A DNA stretch of 64,000 bases from Caulobacter sp. 73W (GTDB lineage: Bacteria > Pseudomonadota > Alphaproteobacteria > Caulobacterales > Caulobacteraceae), in contig NZ_CP158375.1 of NCBI RefSeq assembly GCF_041021955.1, positions 248,001-312,000 on the forward strand. The letters run 5' to 3'. A program made the translations under genes and the position numbers. Of this stretch, positions 10,201 to 12,969 are shown in pieces. The notes under the pieces were generated by a model that did not search any database, had not been told where the DNA came from, and saw nothing but the letters and a program-made list of their open reading frames with translations. Position 1 is the first letter of the stretch; every line of letters begins with the position of its first letter.

Positions 10201-12969
10201 ATGCGGTTCGTAAAGCGTCTTTCGGCCAACGGTCGTGCAGCGGAGGTCGAGCTTCGCACGGTCGAGACCGCGGACGCCCTCGCGGGAATCCTGGCTCCCA
10301 AGAGCTGGTCCGACGCCCGCGTGCAGGCCTGGATCGACTGGGCCGCCCAGCTTCCCCACGACCTGCCCAAGGCCGACACGCCCAAGGCCCTGATCGCCGA
10401 ATCTCCCGCCGGCGCCCTGCTGGCCGGCGGCCCCGACCGCTACGCCCGCCGCCTCGCCGCCCACGGCCTGGCCCAAGGCCTGTTCGCCAAGGCCGCCGAC
10501 GCGCAGGTCTTCCGCGAGGAGCTGTTCGCCGCCCTGGCGCTGGGCCTCGTAGCCCCCGCCGCGCTCTCCGCCGCGCCGCGTAGCGAGACCGTCGCCCTCG
10601 ACGACCTGGAATTCACCGCCGCCGCCGGCCGTCACGTGGCCGATGTCCGCGCCGCCGCCTGCGCCGAGCGCGCCGCCCAGCATCTGGCCGGCCGCCTGGC
10701 CGCCGTCTCGGACGCCGTGATCCGCTGCGAAGGCGACGCCGCCGCCTGCGCCGATCCGCGCCGCAACACCGCCCTGGCCCGGGCCGCTCGAGCCGCGCGG
10801 GAAGCCGGCGCCGACGACGCCCAGATCGCCGACGCCATCCTGCTGGCCCGAACCGGCGCGGCGACCGTCGCCCTGGCTTCCCCCGCCCTGGCCGCTCCGT
10901 CGCGCCTGTTCGTCTTCGCCAGCCGCAAGGCGGTCGAGGCCGCCGAACCCGCCGCCCGCCGCGCCGCCCAGACGGGCTGGGAGACGGGCCGCCTGACCCT
11001 GGCCTTTGATCCTCTCGACGCCGCCGCCCTCACCGCCACCGCACCCCGCGCCGCGATCGACGTCCGCGGCTTCACGACCGAGGCCGGCTTCGACCTCGAC
11101 GGCTTCTCCCATGTGGTCCGCCTGTTCACGGCGGCCCTCGAGATTGAGCGCGCCGCCGCCGGTTTGAGCGCCAGCCGCATCGACCTGACCTTGGCCGGCT
11201 TGGGCGATTACATCGTCGGCCTCGGCCTGCCCTATGGCGCCGATGAAGGCCGCAAGGCCGCCGCCGCCGTCTATGCCCTGCTCGCGGCCGAAGCCTTCCA
11301 CGCCTCCGCCGAACTCGGCGCCGCCCCGGTGAGCGAGGACGACCGCGCCGCCGTGGCCGCGACCTTGCGCAAGCGCGCCCAGGCCGCCCGCAAGCTGAAG
11401 GGCGACATCGCCGCCCGCGCCGGCACGCTATTCAGCACCGCCGCCGATCACCCGGAAAAGCTGGCCCACGCGTCAGTCAGCGCCCTGTTCGACGACGCCG
11501 ACCTGGCCCTGCGCCTCGGCGCACCCCTGGGCGCCGCGCCCTGGACCGGCGCCATGACGGTGTCCGAGACCGCCGACGGCGAGATTGTCCCCGTCCTGTC
11601 CGACGCCGCCCTCAATGGCGCGGCCACCCTGGGCCTCAAGGATGACCTGCGCGCCCACGCCCTGGGCGTCGGCGACCTGCGCGAGGCTCCGGCCATCGAC
11701 CATGCCGCGCTGGAGGCCAAGGGCTTCACCGCCCACGAGGTCGCCGCCGCCGAAGCGATCCTGCCGCTGGCCGGCTCCCTGCGCGCCGCCTTCGCCCCGG
11801 CTGTCATCGAGGCCGGCTTCGTTTGCGACGTCCTCGGCGCCGACGGCGATGCGGTCATGGACCCGGATTTCGACACCCTGGCCTTCGCCGGCTTCACCGC
11901 CGCCGAGATCGCCGCCGCCGAGGCCCACGCCCTGGGCGCCCGCCGCCTGTCCGACGCCCCGTTCCTGGGCGAGAAGGCCCAGTCGGTGTTCGCGGAGCCG
12001 ACGGAGATCGCCCTGCCCGCCCGTCTGGCCATGACGCAGGCGATCGAGGCCTTTGTCTGCACGCCCGCCGTCTTCGCGCTGGAGCTGGATTTCGCCGACA
12101 CCCCGACCGAGGCCGCGCGCCTGCAGGCCGCCGCCGCCCGCGCCGGGCTCCGCGCCCTGCGCCTGACCCGCGCCGCCGCCCCGGCCAGCTTCGCCCTCGA
12201 CCTGCCCGAGATCGAGGAAGCGCCTCGCCGACGCCTGGAGGCCGCCCCGGAGGTCCGCGAGCGGATCGTCGAGAAGATCGTCGAGCGCGACCGCTCCCGT
12301 CGCAAGCTGCCCGACCGCCGCAAGGGCTACATCCAAAAGGCGGCCGTCGGCGGCCACAAGGTCTACATCCACACCGGCGAGTACGACGACGGCGAATTGG
12401 GCGAGATTTTCATCGACATGCACAAGGAAGGCGCCGCCTTCCGGTCGCTGATGAACAACTTCGCCATCGCAGTCTCCATCGGCCTGCAGCACGGCGTGCC
12501 CCTGGACGAGTTCGTCGAGGCCTTCGTCTACACCCGGTTCGAGCCGGCCGGCCCGGTGACCGGCAACGACTCGATCCGCTCGGCCACCTCGATACTCGAC
12601 TACATCTTCCGCGAGCTCGGCGTGTCCTATCTGGACCGCGACGACCTGGCCAACGCCGACCCGTCGGAGTTCAACGCCGACGGCCTGGGCGTCGGCAAGA
12701 ACGCGCCGGAGGGGGGCGAGGACGAAACGCCGCAGCCGGCCTCCAAATTCATCTCCAAGGGCTTCTCCCGCGGCGCGGCACCAGACAACTTGGTCTTGCT
12801 GCCCTTCGGCGGCCGCAAGGCTGAAAGCCCTACTACGGCGGGGGTTTCCGCTTCCATGTGCGCCTCATGCGGTGATCAGGCCGTGGTCCAGCGGGGCGGA
12901 ATGGCCGTCTGCGACACCTGCGGCGCACAGGCCGGACGATCCGACGGCGGGGCCATTAACTCGAATTAA
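10201..12969 (+). CDS. Degenerate class II ribonucleotide reductase (NrdJ)-like protein with intact C-terminal TSCPD-type domain
   Basis: A 922-residue protein that I read as a full-length but catalytically dead relative of B12-dependent NrdJ (usually about 1200 residues). Residues 703-815 (KLPDRRKGYIQKAAVGGHKV, then HTGEYDDGELGEIFIDMHKE and FEPAGPV.GNDSI) are nearly identical to the NrdJ C-terminal domain. The tail has a zinc-finger pair, C887-x2-C890 and C904-x2-C907, like the NrdJ end. Weaker collinear matches cover the rest: RCEGDAAACADPRRNTALAR (175-194), FDLDGFSHVVRLFTAALEIE with GLGLPYGADEGR (297-351), and AIDHAALEAKGFT to FDTLAFAGFTAAEIAAAE (498-574). The NPCSE finger loop and catalytic cysteines are not found. 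Alanine is very abundant upstream of residue 690. The start is the ATG at 10201 behind GGGAGAG; MRFVKRLS resembles the NrdJ start. Two NrdR-like boxes lie upstream. Homology is firm, function unknown. Confidence 0.85.
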   Translation: MRFVKRLSANGRAAEVELRTVETADALAGILAPKSWSDARVQAWIDWAAQLPHDLPKADTPKALIAESPAGALLAGGPDRYARRLAAHGLAQGLFAKAADAQVFREELFAALALGLVAPAALSAAPRSETVALDDLEFTAAAGRHVADVRAAACAERAAQHLAGRLAAVSDAVIRCEGDAAACADPRRNTALARAARAAREAGADDAQIADAILLARTGAATVALASPALAAPSRLFVFASRKAVEAAEPAARRAAQTGWETGRLTLAFDPLDAAALTATAPRAAIDVRGFTTEAGFDLDGFSHVVRLFTAALEIERAAAGLSASRIDLTLAGLGDYIVGLGLPYGADEGRKAAAAVYALLAAEAFHASAELGAAPVSEDDRAAVAATLRKRAQAARKLKGDIAARAGTLFSTAADHPEKLAHASVSALFDDADLALRLGAPLGAAPWTGAMTVSETADGEIVPVLSDAALNGAATLGLKDDLRAHALGVGDLREAPAIDHAALEAKGFTAHEVAAAEAILPLAGSLRAAFAPAVIEAGFVCDVLGADGDAVMDPDFDTLAFAGFTAAEIAAAEAHALGARRLSDAPFLGEKAQSVFAEPTEIALPARLAMTQAIEAFVCTPAVFALELDFADTPTEAARLQAAAARAGLRALRLTRAAAPASFALDLPEIEEAPRRRLEAAPEVRERIVEKIVERDRSRRKLPDRRKGYIQKAAVGGHKVYIHTGEYDDGELGEIFIDMHKEGAAFRSLMNNFAIAVSIGLQHGVPLDEFVEAFVYTRFEPAGPVTGNDSIRSATSILDYIFRELGVSYLDRDDLANADPSEFNADGLGVGKNAPEGGEDETPQPASKFISKGFSRGAAPDNLVLLPFGGRKAESPTTAGVSASMCASCGDQAVVQRGGMAVCDTCGAQAGRSDGGAINSN

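Follow-up and report, generated by a model that had tools for sequence, protein, structure and literature searches.

In this work we analyzed a window of 64,000 nt from the Caulobacter sp. 73W genome (contig NZ_CP158375.1, positions 248,001 to 312,000; G000:C1:248001-312000 in our numbering), which consists of one contig of 4.0 Mb. The window carries a gene for a 922-amino acid (aa) relative of NrdJ, the class II ribonucleotide reductase (RNR); its closest named relative is from Caulobacter segnis (91% identity). An earlier interpretation made from the letters alone (the sequence-only reading) had described it as a relative of NrdJ that lost catalysis and kept its C-terminal domain. This is borne out here by a colinear profile match, by the absence of the catalytic parts and by a TSCPD domain scoring above cut-off, and we refer to the gene as decayed nrdJ. 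The protein has nine cysteines (residues 154, 176, 183, 542, 620, 887, 890, 904, and 907), and its upstream part is rich in alanine, as had been noticed (28% of residues 1-690). The features of the gene are listed below, where A1 is a profile and alignment built from 77 relatives that lack the finger-loop motif NPCSE, 7b9p is the NrdJ of R. sphaeroides, and L064 is the intact protein that gives the reference numbering.

10201..12969, plus strand: decayed nrdJ gene, 922 aa, ATG to TAA
10378..12216, plus strand: degenerate reductase body (residues 60-672), aligned by profile A1 with 7b9p residues 92-921 at E 1e-83
10573..10578, plus strand: approximate junction at residues 125/126, where the NrdJ block ~161-277 (reference L064) is missing, C199 included
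11029..11034, plus strand: approximate site of the missing finger loop NPCSE, residues 277/278 (MAFFT alignment)
12301..12633, plus strand: TSCPD core, residues 701-811, cysteine-free (PF12637, conservation, cysteine list)
12859..12921, plus strand: predicted zinc ribbon C887, C890, C904, C907, with both redox positions lost (alignment; pattern from PMC5704485)

The family profile for B12-dependent RNR, NF005736, matched the protein with an E-value of 5.2e-116 (best stretch 481-865; 388.7 bits, cut-off 1737) and TIGR02504 with an E-value of 1.4e-7 at residues 285-374 (30.5 bits, cut-off 399.95); the protein thus lies far below both NrdJ family cut-offs. The TSCPD domain (PF12637; residues 716-806, E 5.8e-11) is the sole Pfam match above cut-off. 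Since the A1 profile matches 7b9p over profile positions 60-672 with an E-value of 1e-83 (chain residues 92-921, with chain residues ~164-278 left unaligned), the protein is genuinely similar to NrdJ ahead of residue 690, and the outcome that would have refuted the sequence-only reading, a lack of any significant upstream match, did not occur. A profile comparison of this kind had been proposed by the sequence-only reading, which had also quoted five upstream segments as following the order of NrdJ; they do so, at residues 175, 297, 340, 499, and 557. By these alignments the decayed protein is colinear with the long alphaproteobacterial class II NrdJ. The TSCPD region alone gave chance matches only in a PDB sequence search, and a TSCPD-only profile gave no match.

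To examine the catalytic residues, we next aligned 34 decayed proteins with 12 intact ones using MAFFT. NPCSE, present in 28/28 intact long NrdJ proteins of the order, is absent from the 922-aa protein, and no NxCxE string of any kind was found in 202 relatives without NPCSE (duplicates counted). The finger-loop columns C464 and C476 fall in a gap in all 34 decayed proteins. The C487 column holds a cysteine in none of the 34 (alanine in the window protein), and the C199 column holds none in 33, the exception (L138) being an aligned cysteine amid gaps. C199 and C487 of L064 form what we take to be the active-site disulfide pair. The window protein has lost the block around C199 by deletion, and the block around the specificity site is gone. 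The loss of the finger loop and the catalytic cysteines, suspected from the letters, is therefore confirmed.

In the C-terminal tail, four columns that correspond to zinc positions (1208, 1211, 1225, and 1228) hold cysteine in 31 of the 34 decayed proteins, the other three rows having no tail, and the two redox columns (1222 and 1234) hold cysteine in none. In S. nassauensis NrdJ, C920, C923, C936, and C939 are the proposed zinc ligands and C933 and C945 the redox pair, and the zinc measurements agree for three of the four proposed ligands (PMC5704485). In a non-redundant set of open reading frames (ORFs), the six-cysteine tail occurs in 107/109 proteins with NPCSE and the four-cysteine tail in 201/230 ORFs without it; none of these 201 has a cysteine at a redox position. 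Eight of the ORFs counted have no TSCPD, and a few of these eight (L144, L148, L152, L156) were cut at the wrong place. Two NPCSE-less proteins, P0092 and P0101, carry a tail cysteine at another offset, not at the redox positions. The CxxC...CxxC zinc-finger tail that the sequence-only reading saw as preserved has thus kept its four predicted zinc ligands and lost both redox cysteines. Among the features of a class II RNR, the window protein retains the TSCPD domain and the four predicted zinc-ligand cysteines; it falls short of the family cut-offs and lacks the finger-loop NxCxE, the active-site pair, and the C-terminal redox pair. There is also no cluster-ligand cysteine of an IscU Fe-S scaffold in residues 701-811. 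To judge by its residues, with the finger loop, active-site cysteines, and redox pair lost, the decayed protein is no longer catalytic, and a B12 requirement deduced from the gene name is probably wrong.

The TSCPD core is as conserved in decayed as in intact proteins. Pairwise identity over body residues 149-600 falls from 60% among intact to 30% among decayed proteins, whereas the core (701-811) is 88.0% identical among the 34 decayed and 84.4% among the 12 intact proteins (88.2 and 85.6% in a second set). The core of the window protein is 77-85% identical to the 12 intact NrdJ proteins, so that "nearly identical," the wording first used for this domain, was right as to closeness and slightly strong. 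Compared with three congeners, the ratio of nonsynonymous to synonymous substitution rates (dN/dS) was 0.13-0.21 for the whole gene, 0.15-0.24 for residues 1-600, and 0, 0, and 0.04 for residues 697-830, and a relative of the gene is present in 60/61 genomes of the genus. By these ratios decayed nrdJ is under purifying selection. An enzyme homologue whose catalytic residues are lost and which is held by purifying selection has the sequence hallmarks of a pseudoenzyme. Because the catalytic centre is lost and the gene is nevertheless kept by selection, its product is likely a non-enzymatic helper in DNA-precursor supply. Exactly the redox cysteines disappear with catalysis while TSCPD stays, which argues that TSCPD has a job apart from electron transfer.

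The gene was next placed in its genomic context by comparing 21 loci (the window, 17 further decayed, and three intact). The neighbours in the window are:

6492..6989: accB, locus marker (Pfam)
6995..8338, plus strand: biotin carboxylase gene accC, locus marker (Pfam)
9589..9996, minus strand: NDUFA12-family gene, divergent upstream neighbour and nrdJ-locus marker (PF05071)
13029..13952, plus strand: pentapeptide-repeat protein (PF00805), 59 bp downstream of decayed nrdJ on the same strand

The pentapeptide-repeat gene lies downstream in 21/21 loci, the NDUFA12 gene lies upstream on the opposite strand in 20/21, and accC (as a cluster) lies further upstream in 18/21. The three intact loci differ: every marker is present at G464, the NDUFA12 and pentapeptide genes at G483, and the pentapeptide gene alone at G439. 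From its constant position downstream, the pentapeptide-repeat gene may share an operon and a function with decayed nrdJ. The start of the pentapeptide-repeat protein resembles a signal peptide. By these markers, the decayed gene is at the ancestral nrdJ locus.

Of 120 sampled genomes from the order, counted by hand from the profile results, 83 have the decayed form, 28 an intact long NrdJ, nine neither, and none both. This is the outcome of a co-occurrence survey that the sequence-only reading, which favoured an ancient nrdJ duplicate, had suggested as a check. Since the gene sits at the ancestral locus and never co-occurs with intact long NrdJ, the duplicate interpretation is unsupported. 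A duplicate standing beside a true NrdJ was dropped also because this genome has no NrdJ above cut-off: the only TIGR02504 matches, both below it, are the window protein and an alpha-type frame of class I. Among the 83 genomes scored as decayed, 29 were called from the sequences themselves; the other 54 were so called from the extent of their match (the C-terminal part or a partial stretch) and from its falling short of both NF005736 and TIGR02504. The intact form is found in all 24 genomes of family f156 and in four of f155; those with neither are six of the f155 genus g231 and three of f1 (G062, G106, G122). Genus g231 lacks both forms in 6/6 sampled genomes (G443, G447, G451, G506, G514, G522) and offers a natural control for surveys of co-occurrence. 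Every one of the 83 decayed-form genomes encodes NrdB, as do 119/120 overall; the genome without it (G523) and one with only a weak match (G436) both have intact NrdJ. A second, short class II RNR (582-848 aa; L286-L309) passes TIGR02504 in 23/120 genomes, 22 of which have the decayed form. TSCPD is present in the short enzymes, which have NPCGE and a six-cysteine tail at 20/23 loci and NPCGE without the tail at three (L299, L307, L309).

A tree of 48 rows places the order's 32 decayed proteins in a single group (Shimodaira-Hasegawa-like approximate likelihood ratio test support 100) next to the intact f155 proteins, and an approximately unbiased test rejected intact and decayed f155 proteins as one clade (p 5.6e-7). 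Two decayed proteins from outside the order (L143, L145) join its decayed branch; the branches are long. With branches this long, a single origin of decay in the order is no more than likely. Among the best 80 named loci, decayed forms occur in Caulobacter, Phenylobacterium, Brevundimonas, Asticcacaulis, and Maricaulis salignorans, and intact forms in Hellea, Robiginitomaculum, Aquisalinus, and Euryhalocaulis. The decayed form is also present in L193, a metagenome-assembled genome whose contig bears the name Caulobacter vibrioides, and the C. vibrioides control genome shows NF005736 and TSCPD matches, yet is not among the genomes above the NF005736 cut-off.

Upstream of decayed nrdJ, two predicted binding sites of the repressor NrdR were found:

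10097..10112, plus strand: predicted NrdR box 1, ATCCAACATCTTGGGG, core CWANATNTWG with 0 mismatches
10128..10143, plus strand: predicted NrdR box 2, CCCCAACATCTATTGA, 31 bp from box 1, with T in place of the conserved G

These two CAACATCT-type boxes, spaced exactly 31 bp apart, rank first among pairs of this kind in the 64-kb window. The boxes came to notice on comparing the promoter by eye with a looser scan of the nrdB region, and the first box pattern was designed after that; later scans used the generic core CWANATNTWG together with control windows. At a spacing of 30-32, tandem boxes with up to two mismatches of 14 were detected in 60/70 de-duplicated Caulobacteraceae promoters vs 1/1702 control windows (Mann-Whitney p 4.5e-46; the promoters are related, so that p cannot be read as if the events were independent). 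The genome's own nrdA and nrdB loci have box pairs at spacing 31 with one mismatch near the gene starts, and an NrdR gene was found in this genome. The published NrdR operator has a conserved C and G nine apart and boxes 31 bp apart (9/18 and 40/49; PMC9110341). The gene thus shows the sequence signs of an NrdR regulon, a pair of upstream core boxes at a spacing of ~31 bp and an NrdR gene in the genome, and is a predicted target of NrdR.

Beyond the order, 139/240 genomes in a class-wide sample of Alphaproteobacteria pass NF005736. Thirteen non-passing genomes looked odd, and ten of their loci were inspected with flanks; nine lie beside recognisable nrdJ-locus neighbours and G408 does not, the neighbours at the ten loci being named by eye. 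Free TSCPD proteins of 272-278 aa stand at the nrdJ locus in G199, G397, and G288 (L271, L272, L273), which are genomes of the SAR11-type family f99 and of f10; the zinc tail is gone in f99 and kept in G199. The G397 protein is 98% identical to a Candidatus Pelagibacter protein named ribonucleotide reductase. In the SAR11-type family, TSCPD occurs in 101/117 genomes and in 44/45 good ones, in frames of 273-340 aa except one cut frame. G408 and G231 have worn reductases with TSCPD and G217 a diverged TSCPD; worn bodies at the nrdJ locus were also found in f116, f122, and f105 (L277, L278, L279, L280). In G400, TSCPD is located on a separate short RNR. A worn-body frame of f122 contains an NTCDE string in unrelated context. 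Taken from these free proteins and worn bodies, the TSCPD part outlives the enzyme, with exceptions.

We propose that a former nrdJ, still in its original place, is now most likely a non-catalytic adaptor of deoxyribonucleoside triphosphate (dNTP) supply under predicted NrdR control, a proposal in which we have roughly even confidence. Its basis lies at the sequence level: homology, catalytic loss, locus, purifying selection, TSCPD conservation, and tandem boxes. When dATP is low, NrdR would leave the nrdA, nrdB, and decayed nrdJ promoters together; the decayed protein would assemble through its IscU-like TSCPD and zinc-ribbon part, which class II enzymes need to form higher oligomers, and might then bind a conserved partner, for which class I NrdAB or a factor serving NrdAB is the most likely candidate. 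The worn body may act as a spacer or dimer frame, and SAR11-like lineages could shed the body and keep TSCPD alone. A wider and much more speculative idea, which we consider unlikely, is that TSCPD, so far overlooked in this role, is a regulatory subunit for dNTP supply in bacteria and merely rode on class II reductases: Alphaproteobacteria moving to class I RNR would have dropped the B12 enzyme several times and kept TSCPD, which in Caulobacterales would survive within a dead reductase of full length and in SAR11 as a free protein of 274 residues working with NrdAB.

Several observations weigh against the adaptor proposal. A strict E. coli-type NrdR pattern had 0 matches in the window and none upstream at four mismatches, and box 2 lacks the conserved G. 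Boxes are scarce outside Caulobacteraceae (2/7 f154, 0/7 f155, and 1/5 f2 promoters), and six SAR11-type loci have no box pair near two mismatches in a scan at spacing 31 only. The nine order genomes with neither form indicate that the gene is dispensable in places, and in the f116, f122, and f105 remnants (G305, G409, G415, G400) a worn body persists in which no TSCPD can be recognised. The main rival, a real contender that we hold to be appreciably less probable, gives TSCPD a housekeeping job outside dNTPs, e.g. binding of nucleic acid or of another protein, with the NrdR-like boxes as an nrdJ relic. It accommodates the TSCPD-only SAR11-type genomes and the f155 and most f2 relatives, which keep TSCPD without detectable boxes, and the basic RRKGYxQK segment, which is among the most conserved parts; however, a two-box operator kept in so many Caulobacteraceae promoters is hard to explain as a relic if expression has no need to track dNTPs.

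The other explanations fared worse. A regulator or scaffold of catalytic NrdJ, as suggested by the sequence-only reading, could find a partner in the 22/83 decayed-form genomes with a short class II RNR above the TIGR02504 cut-off, but 61/83, this genome included, have no class II RNR above it, and intact long NrdJ co-occurs in 0/120; the idea is refuted as a general role and is improbable. The same reading had the protein trading thiol equivalents through its CxxC pairs, and an electron donor to class I NrdAB would fit the four remaining tail cysteines and the presence of a class I RNR. Because those four occupy zinc-ligand positions and the redox positions are lost in 201/201, thiol trading is very unlikely; any CxxC is moreover absent from all 120 listed SAR11-type relatives. 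Slow decay of a pseudogene, which could account for the fast divergence of the body and for gene loss in 9/120 genomes, is equally hard to credit against open frames, the whole-gene dN/dS of 0.13-0.21, near-zero amino-acid change at the C-terminus, and presence throughout nearly the whole genus, and it was dropped. Least probable of all is a B12-dependent reductase that stays active with its cysteines moved, the view implied by public names (ribonucleotide reductase, for example) and by the placing of NrdJ CCNA_01966 in nucleotide reduction (PMC6538847): the C199 block and finger loop are missing, NxCxE is found in 0/202 relatives, and the protein is below every NrdJ cut-off. A moved active site was dropped on these grounds.

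Members of this gene family carry the name B12-dependent ribonucleotide reductase. If decay as described here holds for CCNA_01966, which is treated as part of nucleotide reduction in Caulobacter B12 physiology (PMC6538847), the NrdJ branch of that scheme does not exist. Annotated NrdJ has likewise been counted in isolates including a Brevundimonas (PMC10378866). In the passages of open-licence PMC papers that we consulted, a dead NrdJ was nowhere described for these bacteria. The decay amounts to a natural experiment separating the parts of NrdJ; it opens the long-unexplained TSCPD domain to tests in Caulobacter crescentus and draws attention to a SAR11 protein that is very widespread and has no assigned function.

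Compared with known systems, the decayed form shares with the long alphaproteobacterial NrdJ (NF005736; 7b9p) the order of protein parts, TSCPD, the zinc-ligand cysteines, the locus, and an NrdR-type promoter; it differs in lacking the finger loop, the active-site and redox cysteines, and the specificity-site block, and in scoring below the family cut-off. C-terminal domains of class II enzymes combine an IscU-like fold with a zinc finger and have been connected with the formation of higher oligomers (PMC9669993; PMC5704485). The decayed form shares this IscU-like TSCPD and zinc finger with the C-terminal domain of NrdJ and with the split subunit NrdJb, which demonstrates that the domain can exist as a separate chain (PMC5704485; PMC9669993). 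Unlike NrdJb, the decayed form has lost two of the six cysteines, and its genome has neither a long-type NrdJa-like partner nor any class II match above cut-off; SAR11 has the TSCPD part only. Betaherpesviruses carry catalytically dead homologues of R1, the large subunit of the reductase, which gained another role. The decayed NrdJ has likewise lost catalysis, but the viral proteins are of class I, whereas this is a bacterial class II protein at its ancestral locus over several families.

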